A stretch of DNA of 64,000 nucleotides. It comes from Acidobacteriota bacterium (GTDB lineage: Bacteria > Acidobacteriota > UBA4820 > DSQY01). Shown here in pieces: positions 1,168 to 12,358 of this stretch. Below the pieces are notes generated by a model. The model was given only the letters and a program-made list of their open reading frames with translations, searched no databases and had not been told where the DNA came from. Position 1 is the stretch's first letter. Each line of letters begins with the position of its first letter. The position numbers and the translations under genes were made by a program. The stretch covers positions 1 to 64,000 of the forward strand of contig JAJYLT010000011.1 of assembly GCA_021787565.1 (NCBI GenBank), in the 5' to 3' direction.

Positions 1168-1653
1168 TCACTTCGCTTCGGCGATGGAGGCGATAATGTG
1201 CACTTTAGTGACCTTTGGCCAGTCAATAGTCTTCATGCTATCGAGCCAGCAGAGGTTGGTATGGTCGTCTTGCGCGTTGGGCTGGACGTCGTCCGTTCGG
1301 TCGCAACTCATGTAGACTTTGCCGTCCTCTCCCTCAAGCCTCACGATGATTTTCATGCTCATCTTCTTGTCAGAGGTATTGCTCACGCCAACGGCGAGCT
1401 TGGGGTGACAGTTGTCCCCGGGATCACTCTTGGCTTTGGCGATATCCTCTTCATTGGGGGCGTTGCGGATCACCACTTCTTCGAAAATAAGGGAGCCCGC
1501 CTTGAAGTGAAGCTCACCCACTTCCGATTTCGGCATGGCTACGGTCTGATCGACCTTGATAGGTTCGCCCGCCCAAGCAAGGGTGCTTGCCGCCGCCCAC
1601 ACGACGCAAGCCCACGCCACGATGCACCAACAGCCACAGTGTCTACGTTTCAT
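1168..1653 (-). CDS. Small secreted protein of unknown function
   Basis: The 161-residue product has an N-terminal signal peptide: a basic start, a hydrophobic core rich in Trp and Ala, and cleavage probably after AWA near residue 28. The mature part is about 130 residues with a C-terminal IIASIAEAK and two or three cysteines. No family is recognised. The ATG is preceded by a strong AAGGAGG. It starts 57 bases after the KAS III stop codon on the same strand, so it may be the last gene of the biosynthetic operon that begins at 7797, or an independent exported protein. Confidence 0.7.
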   Translation of the reverse strand: MKRRHCGCWCIVAWACVVWAAASTLAWAGEPIKVDQTVAMPKSEVGELHFKAGSLIFEEVVIRNAPNEEDIAKAKSDPGDNCHPKLAVGVSNTSDKKMSMKIIVRLEGEDGKVYMSCDRTDDVQPNAQDDHTNLCWLDSMKTIDWPKVTKVHIIASIAEAK

Positions 1654-1710
1654 GCCATCCTCCTTATCAATACCGGCGAAAGAACGATGCCACCTCTTCT
1701 CACGGCCCTA

Positions 1711-2859
1711 TCAAACAGCCGTCATCATCATGTAGCACATGGAAAACCGTCCGCTCTCCGGGATCAGGCAGAGCAACTTGTCCTCGCGGCAGACGCGTCC
1801 CGACTTGAATAGTTCCTCCAAGATGATGTAGATGGCGGCGGATCCGGTATTCCCTTTTGTCGCGAGGTTGCTGTACCACCTTTCCATGGGGATGCCGAAG
1901 CCGATTCTCATCATGGCATCGTGCAATGCGCCCTTGAAGAAATGGGAGGAGTAGTGGGGAAGGAACCAATCCACGTCCCCTGTTTTCAGGGAGTGCTTCT
2001 TGATGACCGCCGGGAGGGTCAGGTCCACGGCTGTCCTGACGATCTCCCGGTTGAGAAGCTTCACATCTTGTTGCAAGTTGAATGCGCCTTCCTCCACAGC
2101 CTCGTGGATCGATTCGAATTCACGCCAGCCCCTCAAGTCTCCGTCTGCGTTCTTGAAGCACCCCGCATACATGCAGGTCTCGAAGTGGCTGGCGAAAGAA
2201 ACATGCTCAATCCAGTCTATCCTCAGAGCCAGCTTCCCGGCCTCGGGAGCTCGCGTCAGGAAGGCGGCCGCGGCCCCGTCGGAAAGCATCCACCGAAGGA
2301 AATCAGCATTGAACAGAAGCGCGGGCCGTTTTGTTAGCTCTTCATGGTGCTTGTGAGGCCCGGACTTGAAGAACCTTGCGTTGAGGAACGACGAGGCCGC
2401 TTCTGAACCCGTGGCCACTGCATTCTTGGACATCCCAAGCGCCACGTTCATATAAGCGTATTTCAAGGCCGTGAGCCCCGAGAGACAGATCCCCGATGTG
2501 CTGATCACTTCGCACGGCCGGCTGCCGAGTTCTCCGTGGACCATAAGCCCGTGGCCCGGCAGCAACTGGTCGGGGGTTCCGGTACCGCAGCAGAGACATT
2601 CGATGTCATCCACTGCAAAACCGTCGTACGGCATCAGGTTCCGAATCGCGTTGGCCGTCAGCTTGGCATTAGAGTGCGTGGATCTTCCGGAAACCGGATC
2701 CAGCGCGTAGTATCTCTGCCGAATCTGGTTGTTCCGCAAGATGATCTGCCTTGTGCGCGACGGAACCTCGCCAGCCATTCCGAGGATCTTCTCCATTTCA
2801 TCGTTGCTGACCGGGTCATTCGGAAGGAATACCCCCAGATCCGTGATGTAGCAATCCAT
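1711..2859 (-). CDS. 3-oxoacyl-ACP synthase III family (KAS III-like) protein
   Basis: The product is about 382 residues and belongs to the FabH/thiolase-fold ketosynthase III superfamily, which condenses an acyl-CoA or acyl-ACP primer with a malonyl-type extender or transfers acyl groups. The expected triad can be placed: Cys in STSGICLSG, His in FLPHYSSHFF and Asn in KGNTGSA. The ATG at 2859 has AGGAG upstream; an in-frame start at 2967 would overlap the radical SAM gene. It sits in an operon with BtrH-like, ABC and radical SAM genes, so a secondary-metabolite role is more likely than housekeeping fatty acid synthesis. The substrate cannot be told from sequence. Confidence 0.85.
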   Translation of the reverse strand: MDCYITDLGVFLPNDPVSNDEMEKILGMAGEVPSRTRQIILRNNQIRQRYYALDPVSGRSTHSNAKLTANAIRNLMPYDGFAVDDIECLCCGTGTPDQLLPGHGLMVHGELGSRPCEVISTSGICLSGLTALKYAYMNVALGMSKNAVATGSEAASSFLNARFFKSGPHKHHEELTKRPALLFNADFLRWMLSDGAAAAFLTRAPEAGKLALRIDWIEHVSFASHFETCMYAGCFKNADGDLRGWREFESIHEAVEEGAFNLQQDVKLLNREIVRTAVDLTLPAVIKKHSLKTGDVDWFLPHYSSHFFKGALHDAMMRIGFGIPMERWYSNLATKGNTGSAAIYIILEELFKSGRVCREDKLLCLIPESGRFSMCYMMMTAV

Positions 2860-2875
2860 GGTGCGGCTCTCCTGT

Positions 2876-4171
2876 TCATACCCGCGCGCGGGACTGGCAA
2901 AGGCGAAGCAGCTCAGCGTATCTTTGGTAGAATACCTTGTCTCCAAGCCTGGTGGGGAGTATGGCATTTTCGAGGGTGTAATAGTCTAGATCCTCGATGA
3001 GGATCCGGTCCTTCATGGTTTCATATAGCGCCGTGCCCGGCAGGGGAGTCAGCACGGACAGAATAGGGAGGTCAATCGGATTCTTCGCGATATATGTGCC
3101 AAGGGCCTCGAACTCGGCTTCGCCGTATTCTGGGGAAATGATGAAATCGCCGACTATGGTAATGCCTATTTCGTGAAGCGCCGCGATGGCTTCCAGGTTG
3201 GTCTCGGTGGAACTTCCCTTGCGCCACCCTCTCAACCTCTTCCCATCGATTTCCTCGAACCCGACGATCACGGAACGCAGCCCTGCGGTCTTCCATCGGC
3301 GCAGGAGGGCCGGGTGGGAGACGACCGTATCGGCTCGGATGTCCGCGATGAAGCTCTTCTGAATGCCCTCCTCCAAAATCGCACCGCAGAGCCTCTCTGC
3401 GTGCCCGATGTCTGCAAACGTGTTGGCGTCAATCAAGCGGACCACTGGGATGTCTCCAAGAAGCCGAACGTCCCGAAGCACCGCGCCCACCCTGCGGGTC
3501 AGATGCCTCCCTCCGGCCTGAGAGGCGATGCAGCAGAAGGAACAGCCGAACGGACAACCGTAGGCGGAGGCAACGAATCCAAGTTTGAGCTTCAATGCTG
3601 GAATCGTGTAGCTCTCTCGGTAGCCTGAGACCTTGTGATAGCTTGGGGGCCAGTCGTCCGCAAGGTCGGCAGGAGAATAAGAGCGGCGCCTGAACGCGAT
3701 CTCTTTGCCGGGTCTGGTCCTGGCCACCCCCGGGATTCCGTCCGGAGTCCTCCCCTCCGCCAGGGCCACCACGAGCTCCCTGAAGCTCGACCCTGCGAGA
3801 CCCACGACGATATAATCGACCTGTTCCCGGTTAAAGTACCCCGGGGCGCTACTAGCATGGCTGCCACCGACCACGACCGTGGCGTTGCACATCGCCTTGG
3901 CCTGCGCGGCGAGCCTCAGAACGGTATTTGCCTCGCATGTGACGCCAGTGAAGCCGACGATCTCGGGTCCAAACTCCACCAAGAAGGTTTCGAGCGCCGC
4001 GGGCTCGACTTTCAGATCCACGATACGAACCTCGTGATCATTCACGGTGCCCGCGAGAACTTCTAGGGCGTAGGGTTCTCCTCGGAAGATATGCTTGACA
4101 AAGTCAATTCCATAGCGTTCCCGCGGAATGCTTCTGCCGCAATTCGGTGGATTCACGAGAAGGATCTTCAT
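2876..4171 (-). CDS. Cobalamin-binding-domain type radical SAM protein
   Basis: The 431-residue product has an N-terminal Rossmann-like region typical of B12-binding radical SAM enzymes (KILLVNPPN at the start, VVVGGSHAS near residue 105). A radical SAM core follows with the cluster motif CPFGCSFC near residue 205. The strict cobalamin ligand motif DxHxxG is not obvious, so B12 binding is uncertain. Enzymes of this class catalyse methylations and rearrangements of unactivated carbons. It lies 16 bases upstream of the KAS III start and 7 bases after the ABC permease stop, which points to one operon. Confidence 0.85.
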   Translation of the reverse strand: MKILLVNPPNCGRSIPRERYGIDFVKHIFRGEPYALEVLAGTVNDHEVRIVDLKVEPAALETFLVEFGPEIVGFTGVTCEANTVLRLAAQAKAMCNATVVVGGSHASSAPGYFNREQVDYIVVGLAGSSFRELVVALAEGRTPDGIPGVARTRPGKEIAFRRRSYSPADLADDWPPSYHKVSGYRESYTIPALKLKLGFVASAYGCPFGCSFCCIASQAGGRHLTRRVGAVLRDVRLLGDIPVVRLIDANTFADIGHAERLCGAILEEGIQKSFIADIRADTVVSHPALLRRWKTAGLRSVIVGFEEIDGKRLRGWRKGSSTETNLEAIAALHEIGITIVGDFIISPEYGEAEFEALGTYIAKNPIDLPILSVLTPLPGTALYETMKDRILIEDLDYYTLENAILPTRLGDKVFYQRYAELLRLCQSRARV

Positions 4172-4178
4172 CGGCTGC

Positions 4179-5534
4179 TCATGCCCCGCTTGGACCCCTT
4201 CTGAGGAGAACGTACCCAGAAAGGAGCATGCTCATCAGGAAAAAAGAGAGTAGCAACAAAATGCCCGGGAGGGCGCCCCGGAGCCCCTGCCCCCGGACGA
4301 AAATAGCAAGAAAGGCATTCAGGCCCCAGGCCAGTGGCGAAAACACGCTGATCTGGCGCATGGTGGCGGGCATGGCGTAGGCAGGAACCATGATTCCTCC
4401 TAACGCCGCGGCAACGACGACCGAGACTGAACCAAACATGGAAGCTTGTTCGAAGCTCCTCGCGACCGTGCCCACCAGCAAGCCGAACCCCGTTGCGGCA
4501 AGGCTGGCGCTGAGGGCCACGAGAAAGACGGCCAGTGGGTCGGATCCCAGGTCTAGTCTCGGTGTCCCAAGCATCGGGAGGAGCAGCTTGCCAATCAGCA
4601 GGATCAGCGTAAACTGTGCCATGCAGACGAGCGCGTATGCCGTAACCTTGCCGGTGACCAGCGCCAAGGTGGACACTGGCATCGTAAGAAGTCGCATCAA
4701 CGTCCCGTTTCGTCTCTCGGTAATGAGAGATTCGGATAGTGGAACCACAATGAAGAACATTCCAAACAGCGCCCAGGCCGGCACGTTCTGTTGAACGGAC
4801 GTGGGCGGAGAAGTCATGCCTCCAGACATGACGACTTGATGTCTGACTCTGATGGCGGGCACGCCGCCCAAGCCTGGGTTTAGATTGGGGAGCGAGCGGA
4901 CAACCGCCCCGGCAATCTCTGGGCCCATGGATCGCTCAACGCTCTCTCTAATTATCTGGGGAATGACTTCGGCCAAGGCTCTGTCTTCCTCCCGCGTTTC
5001 GACCGCGAGAGTTATCCGACCGAGGGAACCCAGAACCGCACCGCGGAAACTCCCCTGAACAGCCGGATCAAAATAGACAGATATCTCGGGCACGACAACC
5101 CCACCGCCCTTTCCGTCACGTTTCCAGGAAAGCGTGGTTTCTACGGCTTCGCGCGCCTTCTTCTGAAGTGCAGCGGTCAATCCCCTAGGGATGAGAATGC
5201 ATACCTGGTAACGGCCGCAGCCCACGGCATCAAGGGCGGAGCGTTTGTCGGCCGTTCTTCCATCCAGCGTTGTTACGACCCCGACAATGCCAGACCCGGC
5301 TAAATCTCTTTCGATGCTCTGCCCGACGTCTCCATGGTCTTCATCCACGAGAATGATACTCTCTCTGGTCTCGAAGAAGGTCTTTGCCACATTCTCCTGC
5401 ACGAGGGAAATCACGACCACGAGAATGGCGGGCATGAGGAAAAGCACGAGAAGCCCCATTTTGTCCCGCCAAAGAAGAAGGAGTTCCTTCCACATCGAGG
5501 CAACGAATCTTCTCATCAATAAGGCGCCTTTCAC
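4179..5534 (-). CDS. ABC-2 type transporter permease
   Basis: The 451-residue integral membrane protein has the ABC-2 layout: an N-terminal membrane segment after a short basic cytoplasmic start (GLLVLFLMPAILVVVI), a large extracytoplasmic loop of about 220 residues, and a C-terminal block of five or so membrane segments that starts near WALFGMFFIVVPL. TERRNGTLMRLLTMPVS is the usual coupling-helix region. Six bases separate it from the upstream ATPase gene, so the two form an exporter. It probably exports the product of the surrounding biosynthetic operon, which is inference from context. Confidence 0.9.
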   Translation of the reverse strand: MKGALLMRRFVASMWKELLLLWRDKMGLLVLFLMPAILVVVISLVQENVAKTFFETRESIILVDEDHGDVGQSIERDLAGSGIVGVVTTLDGRTADKRSALDAVGCGRYQVCILIPRGLTAALQKKAREAVETTLSWKRDGKGGGVVVPEISVYFDPAVQGSFRGAVLGSLGRITLAVETREEDRALAEVIPQIIRESVERSMGPEIAGAVVRSLPNLNPGLGGVPAIRVRHQVVMSGGMTSPPTSVQQNVPAWALFGMFFIVVPLSESLITERRNGTLMRLLTMPVSTLALVTGKVTAYALVCMAQFTLILLIGKLLLPMLGTPRLDLGSDPLAVFLVALSASLAATGFGLLVGTVARSFEQASMFGSVSVVVAAALGGIMVPAYAMPATMRQISVFSPLAWGLNAFLAIFVRGQGLRGALPGILLLLSFFLMSMLLSGYVLLRRGPSGA

Positions 5535-5540
5535 GACCGG

Positions 5541-6278
5541 TCAATCCCTGAGGTGCTTGCCCGTGAGGGAGAAGAAGAGGCCCTCCAAATTAGTGCATCC
5601 GCCCGAATCACGGACCAGGTCATTGGGAGGGCCTTCGGCGATCTTCCGCCCCTCGTCGATAATCGCCACTGAAGAACACAGCATCGCCGCCTCTTCCATG
5701 TAATGCGTGGTGTAGATGATGGTCGTTCCCGTGTCCCTAAGGTGCAGCAGCCTTTCCAGAATCAGGCCTCTCGATTGGGCATCGATGCCCACCGTTGGCT
5801 CGTCCAGAAAGAGAATGGCTGGGCTATGGAGAATGCCCGCAGCCAGGTTGGCCCTCCGCTTCATCCCTCCGGAGTACGTGGAAACAGCCTCGTCTGCCTT
5901 CTGCTGCAAGCCCACGACTTGAAGGCACTCGGCGATCCTATCTCGGAGAAGAGCGCCCCGCATGCCATAGAGCCTGCCGAAATATTGGAGGTTCTCCCGG
6001 GTCGTAAGGCTGGGGTAGAGCGCGATTTCCTGGGGGACGACACCCAGCAAGCTCCGCGCCTCGATTGGGTACTTCAGGATGTCCAGGCCGCCGATGGAGA
6101 CCTGGCCTTCCGTTGGGGCCATGGCCGTGGTCAGGATTGAGATCGCAGTGGTCTTGCCAGCGCCGTTAGGCCCCAGCAGCCCGAGAACCTCCCCCTCCCG
6201 GACGGACAGGTCAAGGCCCTTGAGCGCCGGCGTGGCCGAGCCCCGGTAAACTTTAGTCACACCCCGGACGGAGACCAT
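5541..6278 (-). CDS. ABC transporter ATP-binding protein
   Basis: The product is about 245 residues with all ABC ATPase signatures: Walker A GPNGAGKTT, Q-loop PQEIALYP, ABC signature YSGGMKRR, Walker B ILFLDEPT and a switch His in YTTHYMEE. The start chosen is the ATG at 6278, which has GGAGAG upstream. A longer frame would overlap the btrH-like gene without a good start codon. It pairs with the ABC-2 permease immediately downstream. It resembles the CcmA/drug-exporter subfamily, so export rather than import is expected. Confidence 0.92.
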   Translation of the reverse strand: MVSVRGVTKVYRGSATPALKGLDLSVREGEVLGLLGPNGAGKTTAISILTTAMAPTEGQVSIGGLDILKYPIEARSLLGVVPQEIALYPSLTTRENLQYFGRLYGMRGALLRDRIAECLQVVGLQQKADEAVSTYSGGMKRRANLAAGILHSPAILFLDEPTVGIDAQSRGLILERLLHLRDTGTTIIYTTHYMEEAAMLCSSVAIIDEGRKIAEGPPNDLVRDSGGCTNLEGLFFSLTGKHLRD

Positions 6279-6361
6279 TTCTCTCCGGCAACCGTCCTGA
6301 CTTTCGGCCTGTCTCACGAGCTCCCTTCCCCGCCGGGGGGAGGCTTGGCGGTCCGTTTCAT

Positions 6362-7381
6362 TCAAGCCGCGGCCCACCGTTCTTGCAGGATGGAGCGCAG
6401 GTCGCGAAACAACTCGTCCTCCCGAACGGCGCAGTCTCTCAACATATCGCCCAGTGCGCCGTAGGTGTCTCCCTCCACTGTCCGTGCCTTGCAAATCCTT
6501 GCGCATCTCAACGCGAAAAGGCGCCAGCGGTCACCAATGGCCGTCATCCGCGTGGCCAAGTCCATCAGCCGGTTCTCGCCTAAAACACCGGAAGCTTCCT
6601 GGAGAAACGCCGCGTACATGAATCGAAAACCGGCTCCACCGGTGCCTATCTCCTCTTGCATGCGGATGAGCTGCGCCAAGTAAAGACGCGCCCTCCTCTC
6701 ACCCAGTTTCTCGGGCCACTTTTCAATCTGGTTTCCCAGGAAGTTAACGCCCTTTACTCCCACGAGTGGAAAGGCCACCTCGCGCATGTTCCGGCAGGAT
6801 TCGTTGAGCCCCCGCAACGTTGCATTGGCGACATCGACGTGTTCAGGCACGCTGGAAATGTAGTACATCCTGCCCTTCGGAGAGAACATACCCCTTGCGA
6901 ATCGGGCCTTTTGAATGTCCTCCCTCGCGCAAACAATGGGCTCTTCCATCACTGGGTCACTGACCGCATAGCAGTCCCCGTTTCTACCGTAGACAACGAG
7001 GTTATGGGCGTTGAAATGGAACCTCAGGGCCGCGGGGATATACGGTAACCAAAAAATCCCCGCTTGGAGGCCGACGGGGATCCCGGCGTCGAGCCTTCTG
7101 TCGAGGCTAGCCATGGCAGCCCGCTGGCTCCAGAACTTCTCCGCGCCGATCTTGATCCCTAGGTGCTTGGTGGCCTTTTTTAGGATGCTACCCGGGAAGC
7201 TACGAAAGGCGGTCAGAGGCAAATCATTGATCTTGATGAACGGGAAATGGGCAAAGTGAAGGCCCGCTCCGATCCCGAAGACCAGCGACTCGGAAATGCG
7301 CACGCCATGGTGGCACAGGAGGTTAGCGGTTACGCCCGTTTCACAATGTGCTGCCTGCTGGTGGCGAAAAGGGACGCTCAT
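6362..7381 (-). CDS. BtrH N-terminal domain-containing protein (acyltransferase-like)
   Basis: The 339-residue protein begins with HCETGVTANLLCHHG and SESLVFGIGAGLHF, which match the BtrH N-terminal family: a C39-peptidase-like fold in which a Cys/His pair transfers an acyl group, as BtrH does in butirosin biosynthesis. Cys13 is the candidate nucleophile, and the FHFNAHNLVVYG region near residue 120 supplies a candidate His. The C-terminal half is helical and probably corresponds to DUF4872. Its ATG overlaps the TGA of the preceding small gene by four bases, so the two are coupled. Together with KAS III it suggests assembly of an acylated product. Confidence 0.8.
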   Translation of the reverse strand: MSVPFRHQQAAHCETGVTANLLCHHGVRISESLVFGIGAGLHFAHFPFIKINDLPLTAFRSFPGSILKKATKHLGIKIGAEKFWSQRAAMASLDRRLDAGIPVGLQAGIFWLPYIPAALRFHFNAHNLVVYGRNGDCYAVSDPVMEEPIVCAREDIQKARFARGMFSPKGRMYYISSVPEHVDVANATLRGLNESCRNMREVAFPLVGVKGVNFLGNQIEKWPEKLGERRARLYLAQLIRMQEEIGTGGAGFRFMYAAFLQEASGVLGENRLMDLATRMTAIGDRWRLFALRCARICKARTVEGDTYGALGDMLRDCAVREDELFRDLRSILQERWAAA

Positions 7382-7797
7382 CTTTCGCCCTTGTCCCGCT
7401 GGATCTCGGGAACGAAGGAGATGCGTTCAACGGGCATTCGCAGGACAGCCGCATATCGCCCCTTGAGGCTCGGTTTCAGGCGCTCGAATACTTCCCACCT
7501 CAGATGCCTTCTAACTCTCCAGATGGGGAGCCGGACATATTGGGCCATGAGTTTGATGTCCATCTGGTTCAGGGCCATGTGGTAGGCGAGGGGGCTCTTG
7601 ACTCTCGCGTGGACGTCGCGGAGCGCCTGCTCCACCTGCTTGGAAATGACCTCCCAAGCCATGCCGTTGGCGATGTTCAGAGGCTCCCATCCGGTGCTGG
7701 GTGCAAGCACATAGCGGTCGTTTTCCCCCAGCGCGTAGCAGACGCTTTTCCTGCCTTCATACAGCCCTTCATCTTGAGGAACCTCATCGATCTTCAT
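7378..7797 (-). CDS. Small HTH-like protein, first gene of the biosynthetic operon
   Basis: The product is 139 residues with no signal peptide. The C-terminal half (about residues 70-115) reads MDIKLMAQYVRLPIWRVRRHL and following, which fits a helix-turn-helix. The N-terminal half contains VLAPSTGWEP and an amphipathic helix. I recall similar small proteins beside lipid and secondary-metabolism genes but cannot name the family. As the first gene of the operon it could be a regulator or a small partner of the BtrH-like protein. Confidence 0.65.
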   Translation of the reverse strand: MKIDEVPQDEGLYEGRKSVCYALGENDRYVLAPSTGWEPLNIANGMAWEVISKQVEQALRDVHARVKSPLAYHMALNQMDIKLMAQYVRLPIWRVRRHLRWEVFERLKPSLKGRYAAVLRMPVERISFVPEIQRDKGER

Positions 7798-9661: not shown

Positions 9662-12148
9662 TTATCGTCCATTTTCTAACCTAGCATCGTTCATTCCAGC
9701 GTGCCATTCAATCTCTGAATAGGGACTTGAAACGGCGTAGATAGATCTCAAATCGTAGGGCTTCCCGTTGATTGCCCCGTCGTTGAGGGTTCTAGGATTT
9801 GCAGGCTGCTGCAGGTCCCAAGGGTCCAAGATAAGGTAGGCTGATGGCCCACTCTGAGCGGCTGCCTTGCCGATGATTACTACCATGTGCGTGTTATCGT
9901 TACGAATGTACGTTCCCATTTTCTTGAAGCGTACACCAGCTAAGACCGGATAACCCTTCGCCAGTTCTGCGTCTATTTGGGGGGAAAGTGCCGCCAAGTC
10001 CTTACGTGGATTCCCAGTGGAAGCCCCTATATGTTGTGTCAAGATTACATTCGCCATATCCGCTTCCGGCAACTGTCCCCAATTTACTAAGCATTTCTGG
10101 GTGTACCCGCCATCACCCTTAAATTGTGTGTTGAGCTCGCTTGGGTTTGTTTTGGTGGAGTATCCATGAATAACCATTGCGATAGAGGTTATGTAGCACC
10201 CTTGTGCATAAATTGTGTCATAACCGCTTCTCGGGCCACCTTTTGTGCATGGCTCACTAGGTGTCGTGCAAAAGCCGAGATGATCGCACGCCCATTGAGG
10301 GTCCCTTTGGCTGAAAAAGTGCACGGGCAAATAGTTCGACTGAGTTGCCGCGAAGGTCAGCCCGTTTACGGCAACCCCATTCACGCTCACGCTCTGATTC
10401 GTGGGATAGAACGTGTACCCTGCTAAACTAGGAGTTATTGTGTAGGTGCCGTTGGCTAGGCCGGTCAGGGAAAAATACCCGGTGGAGTCTGTTGTCGCTG
10501 CCACGCTACCATCGCTAAGACAAACTCCCTGTAGGCCGTAACCATTGGTGGTGACCGAACCGGAAATGGAATATGAAAGCGTCTGAACCACGGTGATTGT
10601 GTAGCTTTCGTTCCTCGTGCAGCCGTTGGTGTCGGTGGCCGTAATGGTGAAGGCAAAACTACCGGCCTGTGCTGGGCTCCCGGAGAGCAGGCCGCTGGAT
10701 GAAAGCGCGAGGCCGATGGGAACGGTTCCGGAAGTGACGGCGTAGGTGTAGGGCGGAGCTCCGCCCGACGCTGAAATGGTTTGGTTGTAGAAACTCCCCA
10801 CCGTTCCCCCGGGCAGGCTGGCCGGACTTAACGCCAAGCTGCACGAACCTTGCTGAACGGAAATCTCCACATTGCTGGTGCAGTTGTTGGTGCCATCTGC
10901 GACAATTAACGAGGCCCAATAGTCCCCGGCGCTTGTATAGATATGCAGGGGGGCCTGGCTGGTGTCGCCCATGCCGTCGCCGAAGTTCCAGAAGTAGGTT
11001 TGGCTGCCGGAGGCTCCAACTGTGTTTGCGGAGAAGGCAACCGTTAACGGGGCGAACCCGATGAGAGGTGTGGCGCCAATCGAGCATCCTAACCCTGGCG
11101 CCGAGGAGGTCTGAATGGTGATGTCGTCGATCCGTGCGCCAAAGCCAGGGGGAGTGTTGTACTGAGAATTGAATGCCAACCAGAGCTGGTTGCAAGAGTA
11201 TTGGGTTAGATCTCCCAGTCCGTACCATTGGCGCAGATTGAAAATTAGATGCCACCAGGAAGGCCATGCTCCCCAATAAAGCCATCCATAACCTGAATAG
11301 TAAAGGGCCAGCGTATCCACATTCGGATAACCCGAAGAGCCATCAGTATTAATGGAGACGTAGCCATCGAACCATGCCTGCCCAGCTCCCGAGAGGTCCT
11401 CGCAGCCAAGGTCCTGCATATTGGTGGTGACCCCTTGCGGATAGGTATCGTAGCAGCCGAGGGTGCTCCCCATAGATCCGCCGCGGACGGCGTCGCCAGA
11501 ATAGGCCCCGGTGTGAGCGTCGCAGGAGGCAGTGCTCCAGGCATAGGCGGCATAGGTATTGTCCCAAAGGTTCCAGTTGGAGAGTCCGTTTTCAAAGTTC
11601 TCGCTGAATATGACTCCGTTTTCGGCGGCCTTTCTTACCATCTGCGGCGGCTGCGTGCCTGACTGCTGAACCGGTTGCAGCGGCGCGCGGCAAGGAAATT
11701 TGGCGATATAGGGACTCGCTTGGGCACCTAGCGCTTCTTCCATTTGGTGCCGCACCTGGCTGAGAAATTGTTCCAACGTCATAGACCCCGTGGGCTTCAA
11801 TGCTGCAACGAGTGGGGATACCGAAGAATCAAGTCTGACGAATCGGCTCGCCGCCTGCTGAACGCCTTCCAGATGGTCGTCGCACAGCATGAGGAACTTG
11901 CCGTCGCGCTGATGGTAAACGGCGGCTAGGGCGCCGCACATCGCGACTTCGGCTTGGGTTTGCGAGAAGCCGGACGCCTCGTAAGCTTGGTGCATCGCTT
12001 TTAGGTCGGGGAGAGGTCGTGATGCCGAGCTCGCAGTGGAGGGGGGGGCAGAGGATGCTGCGGCCCAAGCCGTGATGCAAGCGATAAGACCGATGGCAAT
12101 GAAGAGTTTGTGCCATCCATTTCCCGAGATCAAGATTCTGCTGGCCAT
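9662..12148 (-). CDS. Large secreted protein with PKD, Ig-like and C39-family peptidase domains
   Basis: The product is about 828 residues. After a signal peptide it has an N-terminal region with a jelly-roll-like segment (around 190-370), a PKD domain with YFWNFGDG, a putative-Ig module (LSPASLPGGTVG to ATDTNGC), a carboxypeptidase-regulatory-like module (SISGSVTTNG) and a C-terminal C39-type papain-like domain of about 220 residues. Cys in AQGCYITS, His in NTHMVVIIG and Asp in LILDPWD are the candidate catalytic residues. The start at 12148 has AAGGAG upstream. It is probably an exported protease or bacteriocin-like processing enzyme; the substrate is unknown. Confidence 0.8.
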   Translation of the reverse strand: MASRILISGNGWHKLFIAIGLIACITAWAAASSAPPSTASSASRPLPDLKAMHQAYEASGFSQTQAEVAMCGALAAVYHQRDGKFLMLCDDHLEGVQQAASRFVRLDSSVSPLVAALKPTGSMTLEQFLSQVRHQMEEALGAQASPYIAKFPCRAPLQPVQQSGTQPPQMVRKAAENGVIFSENFENGLSNWNLWDNTYAAYAWSTASCDAHTGAYSGDAVRGGSMGSTLGCYDTYPQGVTTNMQDLGCEDLSGAGQAWFDGYVSINTDGSSGYPNVDTLALYYSGYGWLYWGAWPSWWHLIFNLRQWYGLGDLTQYSCNQLWLAFNSQYNTPPGFGARIDDITIQTSSAPGLGCSIGATPLIGFAPLTVAFSANTVGASGSQTYFWNFGDGMGDTSQAPLHIYTSAGDYWASLIVADGTNNCTSNVEISVQQGSCSLALSPASLPGGTVGSFYNQTISASGGAPPYTYAVTSGTVPIGLALSSSGLLSGSPAQAGSFAFTITATDTNGCTRNESYTITVVQTLSYSISGSVTTNGYGLQGVCLSDGSVAATTDSTGYFSLTGLANGTYTITPSLAGYTFYPTNQSVSVNGVAVNGLTFAATQSNYLPVHFFSQRDPQWACDHLGFCTTPSEPCTKGGPRSGYDTIYAQGCYITSIAMVIHGYSTKTNPSELNTQFKGDGGYTQKCLVNWGQLPEADMANVILTQHIGASTGNPRKDLAALSPQIDAELAKGYPVLAGVRFKKMGTYIRNDNTHMVVIIGKAAAQSGPSAYLILDPWDLQQPANPRTLNDGAINGKPYDLRSIYAVSSPYSEIEWHAGMNDARLENGR

Positions 12149-12358
12149 GCCCCACTCCTTGAAAGTAAGCCTCCCCAATCTCCGCATGCGCAGGCGCCGT
12201 TCCGCCAGTGAGTAACACTGAGAAAGATTGCCTCTCGGGTGATCGCCCAAGGCTTCTCCCATTTCCAACTCAACATTGTCACTCCCTCCCCATGTGAAGA
12301 ATGTGGCTAGTGCCTGTCCGACCCAAAATCATCGATAGGGTAATGGCCCTTCGGTTCT

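Follow-up and report, generated by a model that had tools for sequence, protein, structure and literature searches.

In the known gene clusters for dialkylresorcinols (DARs), the ketosynthase/cyclase DarB adjoins the aromatase DarA, and cyclohexanediones are intermediates of the synthesis. The arcuflavin cluster of Azoarcus sp. BH72 (darA-darK) encodes a DAR-aromatase (darA), a DAR-cyclase (darB), an acyl carrier protein (ACP; darC), a conserved hypothetical protein (darD), a BtrH-like protein (darE), an ATP-binding cassette (ABC) transporter (darF and darI), and a ketosynthase (KS; darJ) (PMC3949708). In Chitinophaga, the locus tags of darB and darA follow one another, and the expression of both genes yielded a DAR (PMC3992019). 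Resorcinol is not made by Pseudomonas chlororaphis mutants in darA or darB (PMC6403133). Here, we analyze an operon in a stretch of 64,000 nucleotides (the window) of an Acidobacteriota bacterium (contig JAJYLT010000011.1, assembly GCA_021787565.1). The locus is very probably a DAR operon, in which the gene of a B12-binding radical S-adenosylmethionine (SAM) protein, hereafter rSAM, occupies the position of darA. This type of operon, for the synthesis and export of flexirubin-type DAR lipids, is already known; what is new is the rSAM in place of DarA. The swap has occurred again, independently, in relatives, pointing to a putative, so far unrecognized route to the aromatic ring.

The operon and its match to dialkylresorcinol clusters

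Seven minus-strand open reading frames (ORFs) occupy positions 1168-7797 of the window, near the beginning of a contig of 92,689 bp (C48) in an assembly of 3.47 Mb that is 98.3% complete. In operon order, 5' to 3', they are:

7378..7797, minus strand: DarG-family protein, 139 amino acids (aa), counterpart of Azoarcus darD by position and family (NF053536, 125.9 bits, cut-off 70)
6362..7381, minus strand: DarH, BtrH-related acyltransferase, 339 aa (NF053550, 459.8 bits, cut-off 300; PF14399 and PF16169)
5541..6278, minus strand: ABC transporter ATPase, DrrA-like (PF00005; DrrA model 260.6 bits, under its cut-off of 312)
4179..5534, minus strand: ABC-2 type permease, 451 aa (PF12698 and PF01061, both above cut-off)
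2876..4171, minus strand: B12-binding radical SAM protein (rSAM), 431 aa, in the DarA position (PF02310 and PF04055 above cut-off)
1711..2862, minus strand: DarB, StlD/DarB-family ketosynthase/cyclase (NF005293, 549.9 bits, cut-off 450)
1168..1653, minus strand: ORF7, 161-aa protein with a signal-peptide-like start (no family match)

DarB, DarG, and DarH all score above the NCBIfam cut-offs for families of the DAR pathway. The original prediction, made from the DNA letters, had described a compact biosynthesis and export operon with a BtrH-like acyltransferase, a β-ketoacyl-ACP synthase III (KAS III)-fold enzyme, a B12 radical SAM enzyme, and an ABC exporter, and the family matches bear this out. 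A lipid-like, acylated, and exported product is likewise the probable output, as proposed there. The view that this combination had no characterized product is superseded, since the set minus the rSAM is that of the Azoarcus arcuflavin cluster and matches DAR clusters of known product class (PMC3949708). The first gene, taken at that time for a small helix-turn-helix-like one, scores as a member of the DarG family.

The KAS III label was right for the fold and wrong for the family, which is that of the StlD/DarB ketosynthases. DarB aligns end to end with the solved StlD structure (PDB 5gk0; 407.9 bits) and retains the catalytic Cys, His, and Asn; the StlD entry 5gk2 has an Ala at the position aligned with the His of DarB. 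It falls under the strict "exception" model NF053539 (460.5 versus 550 bits). The housekeeping enzyme FabH was rejected as its identity (FabH model, 66.5 bits versus a cut-off of 292.1), and a separate strong PF08541 match in the same genome (C6:11027) is the likely FabH.

The ORFs and their tiny gaps or overlaps were confirmed as first described. DarG and DarH share 4 overlapping bases. Further along, DarH and the ATPase are 83 bp apart (with the likely ATPase start at 6278), the ATPase and the permease 6 bp, the permease and the rSAM 7 bp, the rSAM and DarB 13 bp (with the likely DarB start at 2862), and DarB and ORF7 57 bp. The ATPase start was placed at ATG 6278 from a ribosome-binding-like GGAGAGAA and the alignment of homologs; permease homologs begin aligning at ATG 5516. 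Of the seven genes first counted, six remain: ORF7 had no family match in profile searches and has no counterpart at related loci, so it was dropped as a member and is probably outside the module. The conserved unit is thus six genes (1711-7797). The same order, save for one ACP gene, was found at two other loci (L075 and L078), and the rSAM-DarB adjacency was found again in dozens of genomes.

Mutual exclusion and exchange of rSAM and DarA

Directly upstream of DarB, some loci encode a flavodoxin-type protein of 290 to 330 aa, the DarA candidate, and others a member of the rSAM family of the window. We analyzed the partners of DarB in two samples. The first comprised 395 genomes of the phylum of a Desulfobacteraceae relative (L016), 34 of which have DarH above the cut-off; these 34, the window genome, and one further genome (G291) made up the 36 genomes of the whole-genome searches. 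DarB was found in 32 of them, 21 with the rSAM and 11 with the DarA candidate, none with both and none with neither. In 20 of its 21 genomes, the rSAM scored at least 616 bits; the remaining one, G291, has a piece of 139 residues where a contig ends. The DarA candidate reached at least 414 bits in 10 of 11 genomes, the exception being G344, again with a piece at a contig end. Weaker matches, of 62 to 79 bits to DarA and, in G518, of 270 bits to the rSAM, were counted as paralogs. The four genomes lacking DarB had neither enzyme. In the whole genome of the window, neither a single DarA candidate nor a 10-sequence profile of such candidates found a match; with the same profile, ten other genomes covered by this search scored 414 to 537 bits.

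The second sample consisted of 390 genomes of one class, with 48 DarB genomes, 47 of them new. At the locus level, 20 had the rSAM, 20 had DarA, none had both, and 2 had neither (L155 and L157); the remainder were two loci cut by contig ends (L124 and L147) and three fragments outside the examination. Altogether, DarA and the rSAM occur together in 0 of 72 loci. The rest of the core (DarB, DarG, DarH, the ABC pair, and usually an ACP) is alike in both types. At two loci (L125 and L165 [G861]), a frameshift, either real or due to assembly, breaks the DarB-adjacent rSAM gene into two consecutive ORFs, which score 250 and 380 bits. A search of genome contigs with the rSAM alone returned two loci only, one of them remote.

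In a first tree of 38 DarB sequences, the rSAM type formed one clade (94/93 support), and the exclusion could therefore have reflected a single event. This was overturned by a denser tree of 76 sequences (both trees were built from DarB only), which shows no fewer than seven changes of partner. Six independent pairs on supported branches were all reciprocal (sign test; P = 0.031, the minimum attainable for six), and forcing all rSAM types, a group defined from the labels and not from the tree, into one clade was rejected (approximately unbiased test, p-AU = 4.9e−13). Even DarBs about 90 to 91% identical have different partners: the rSAM at L158 and L154, and DarA at L149, L150, L151, and L168. 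At the latter four loci, the DarA gene lies on the opposite strand, about 1.3 to 1.4 kb from DarB, a layout that would fit the arrival of DarA at a new site and loss of the rSAM, a direction that we infer.

Plasmid searches found DarB homologs in Streptomyces, Bacteroides, Prevotella, and Pseudoalteromonas. None of the four plasmid stretches examined had DarH, whose plasmid matches were remote. In the Prevotella and Bacteroides plasmids (L018 and L020), a regulator-like gene immediately precedes the DarB-like one, and the annotation shows neither DarA nor DarG nor DarH in the vicinity. The Pseudoalteromonas plasmid (L019) has, behind its DarB homolog, a gene annotated as "iron-containing redox enzyme". 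Long ORFs in three genomes of the phylum of the window genome (L012 6440-8431, L014 6551-8587, and L013 9641-11539, of G128, G214, and G047, respectively) fuse a DarB-like ketosynthase to a C-terminal part, which at L012 and L013 matches PF14518 (iron-containing redox enzyme). These might represent a third kind of oxidative partner, here of DarB-like enzymes.

Proposed pathway and competing explanations

The repeated one-for-one exchange, with the remaining core unchanged, is best explained if both enzymes perform the same step. Since DarA is named a DAR-aromatase, the rSAM would dehydrogenate the cyclohexanedione. Judging from gene content and phylogeny, we consider it somewhat likely that the B12-type radical SAM protein is the aromatase, turning dialkyl-cyclohexane-1,3-diones into resorcinols, presumably without oxygen, and that it has repeatedly swapped places with the flavodoxin-type DarA. 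For the pathway as a whole, the balance tips only slightly in favor of the following scheme. DarB would join and cyclize two acyl chains into a 2,5-dialkyl-cyclohexane-1,3-dione, as shown for its relatives; the rSAM, replacing DarA as in the reciprocal exchanges, would take two hydrogens off this ring to give the resorcinol; DarH, by analogy with BtrH, would move an acyl group from an ACP onto a ring hydroxyl, forming an ester, with the assistance of DarG; and the ABC pair would export the product.

Several observations weigh against an aromatase role. The second sample was covered at the locus level only, and L155 (G737) and L157 (G787) have neither enzyme within about 9 kb on each side or to the contig end; the step may therefore sometimes be unlinked or dispensable. 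The label of the flavodoxin-type proteins comes from their adjacency to DarB, their length, and weak flavodoxin-like matches, not from a characterized DarA sequence, and no NCBIfam or Pfam model recognizes these candidates; a homolog (31% identity) lying beside DarB and an ACP gene in the Streptomyces plasmid was also used for the label. Finally, the nearest named family of the rSAM, by profile score, is HpnR, a putative pointer to C-methylation.

The last point bears on the explanation that survives best after aromatization, although we regard it as rather unlikely: the rSAM would be a methylcobalamin-dependent C-methylase acting on the cyclohexanedione, the methylated ring would be either unable to aromatize or in no need of it, DarA would be useless beside the rSAM, and the exported product would be an acylated methyl-cyclohexanedione. 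Most known enzymes with the B12-binding plus radical SAM architecture methylate, and a quaternary carbon would prevent aromatization, which would account for the exclusion of DarA as well. However, the score against the HpnR hopanoid C-3 methylase (TIGR04367), the best named match, is 143.5 bits, far under the cut-off of 650, and the second-best match is an oxidative enzyme, the BchE cyclase (TIGR02026; 88.2 versus 481.35 bits). Moreover, the repeated swaps, among closely as well as distantly related DarBs, leave DarG, DarH, and the exporter unchanged, which would be easier with the same product. The rSAM has a CxxxCxxC motif at 206/210/213, with cluster cysteines conserved across its family, and it scores 32.4 bits against the B12 radical SAM proteins of ladderane-type lipids (TIGR04072; cut-off 360). 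AlphaFold models of the rSAM and DarG, two sequences each, were too poor for use (pLDDT of 53 and 52).

More doubtful is a role of the rSAM in decorating the alkyl chains or another late intermediate, with aromatization carried out by an unlinked enzyme or enzyme-free. Other B12 radical SAM proteins in neighboring acyl-assembly modules of relatives and the two loci with neither enzyme speak for it. Against this, a purely decorating enzyme should sometimes coexist with DarA, which it never does at the loci counted above, and the rSAM adjoins DarB on the same strand wherever the contig allows.

A pathway to an unrelated acylated metabolite, outside DAR synthesis, is very improbable. DarG scores under the flexirubin equivalog (NF053545; 117.9 versus 170 bits), DarB under NF053539, and no product is known from the source lineage, but three proteins pass the cut-offs of dar families, the gene set matches published DAR clusters, and DarB aligns with StlD over its whole length. 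Chance adjacency, the case that the original prediction had set against itself, has a negligible probability: the absence of the operon from sampled family relatives is as compatible with a random arrangement as with horizontal transfer, but synteny is strong, with the gene order repeated at L075 and L078 save for an ACP gene and these modules shared by many further genomes, and on this ground chance co-occurrence was excluded.

So far, ring aromatization in the DAR, flexirubin, and arcuflavin pathways has been assigned to DarA alone. We found no literature linking radical SAM enzymes to DarB or DAR clusters, in a search that left most subscription journals outside. If the rSAM is an aromatase, this would be a non-orthologous displacement between flavin-type and radical chemistry, and a new reaction would be added to those of B12-type radical SAM enzymes. 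DAR-type lipids would also extend to many relatives of sulfate reducers, where searches keyed on DarA miss the clusters.

Origin, acyl supply, and known systems

The operon was likely acquired horizontally. The eight genomes sampled from the genus and family of the window genome lack DarH and a close DarB; across the phylum (297 genomes), G291 is the only other genome where a close DarB (54%) was found. The GC content is 58.3% in the operon versus 65.7% in the window beyond 8.8 kb, and in the tree the window DarB sits among those of the phylum to which the Desulfobacteraceae relative belongs. A large ORF of 868 aa (window 9662-12268), encoded on the same strand upstream of the operon, has, judging by eye, stretches resembling PKD/Ig domains and, at its C terminus, a papain-like (C39-type) region.

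There is no ACP within the operon. The same genome has an ACP at the end of contig C38, 49 to 58% identical to cluster ACPs, and, on C52, a KS pair accompanied by an ORF that looks FabZ-like by eye; genome-wide, the strong PF00109 matches are FabF and the KS pair on C52 only. Relatives often carry beside the DAR module a KS pair and genes for an ACP, LPLAT-like and glycosyltransferase-like proteins, and further B12 radical SAM proteins (L060 14940-18935; L070, L073, L075, and L080; L118 of G291), a set not found in the window genome. One of these genes (L060 17559-18935), separate from the rSAM, encodes a true member of the "lipid biosynthesis" family TIGR04072 (698.6 bits).

The candidate triad of DarH (Cys13-His126-Asp142) is invariant in 37 of 37 homologs. 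A second BtrH/DarH-like protein in the window genome (L015 8337-9386; contig C6, 146.4 to 147.3 kb) scores 99 bits, under the cut-off, near adenylate-forming-like ORFs and with no DarB seen. At L086, L087, and L089, DarG-DarH pairs are tandemly repeated two to three times with an ABC exporter, an ACP, and a KS, and with no DarB nearby; DarH therefore seems to serve another acceptor too.

Compared with known systems, the window operon has counterparts of Azoarcus darB, darD, darE, darF (ABC ATPase), and darI (ABC permease) (PMC3949708), while it lacks darA, darC (ACP), and darJ (KS), and a B12-type radical SAM gene adjoins darB instead. With the flexirubin/DAR genes of Chitinophaga pinensis and Flavobacterium johnsoniae (PMC3992019) it shares the DarB, DarG, and DarH families but neither darA nor the aryl-polyene genes (ammonia-lyase, ligase, many KS, ketoreductase, and dehydratase genes), which are missing from the window; none of the aryl-polyene assembly genes is present between 1168 and 7797. 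DarH has the N-terminal fold of BtrH, the butirosin side-chain acyltransferase (PF14399), but forms its own NCBIfam equivalog, away from any butirosin genes. Likewise, the rSAM has the B12-binding and radical SAM domains of HpnR but, besides its low score (143.5 versus 650 bits), adjoins DarB rather than hopanoid genes. StlD, the cyclohexanedione-forming ketosynthase of the Photorhabdus stilbene pathway, is similar to the window DarB over its full length, including the Cys, His, and Asn, but its partner genes differ, and the operon has no stilbene pathway genes.

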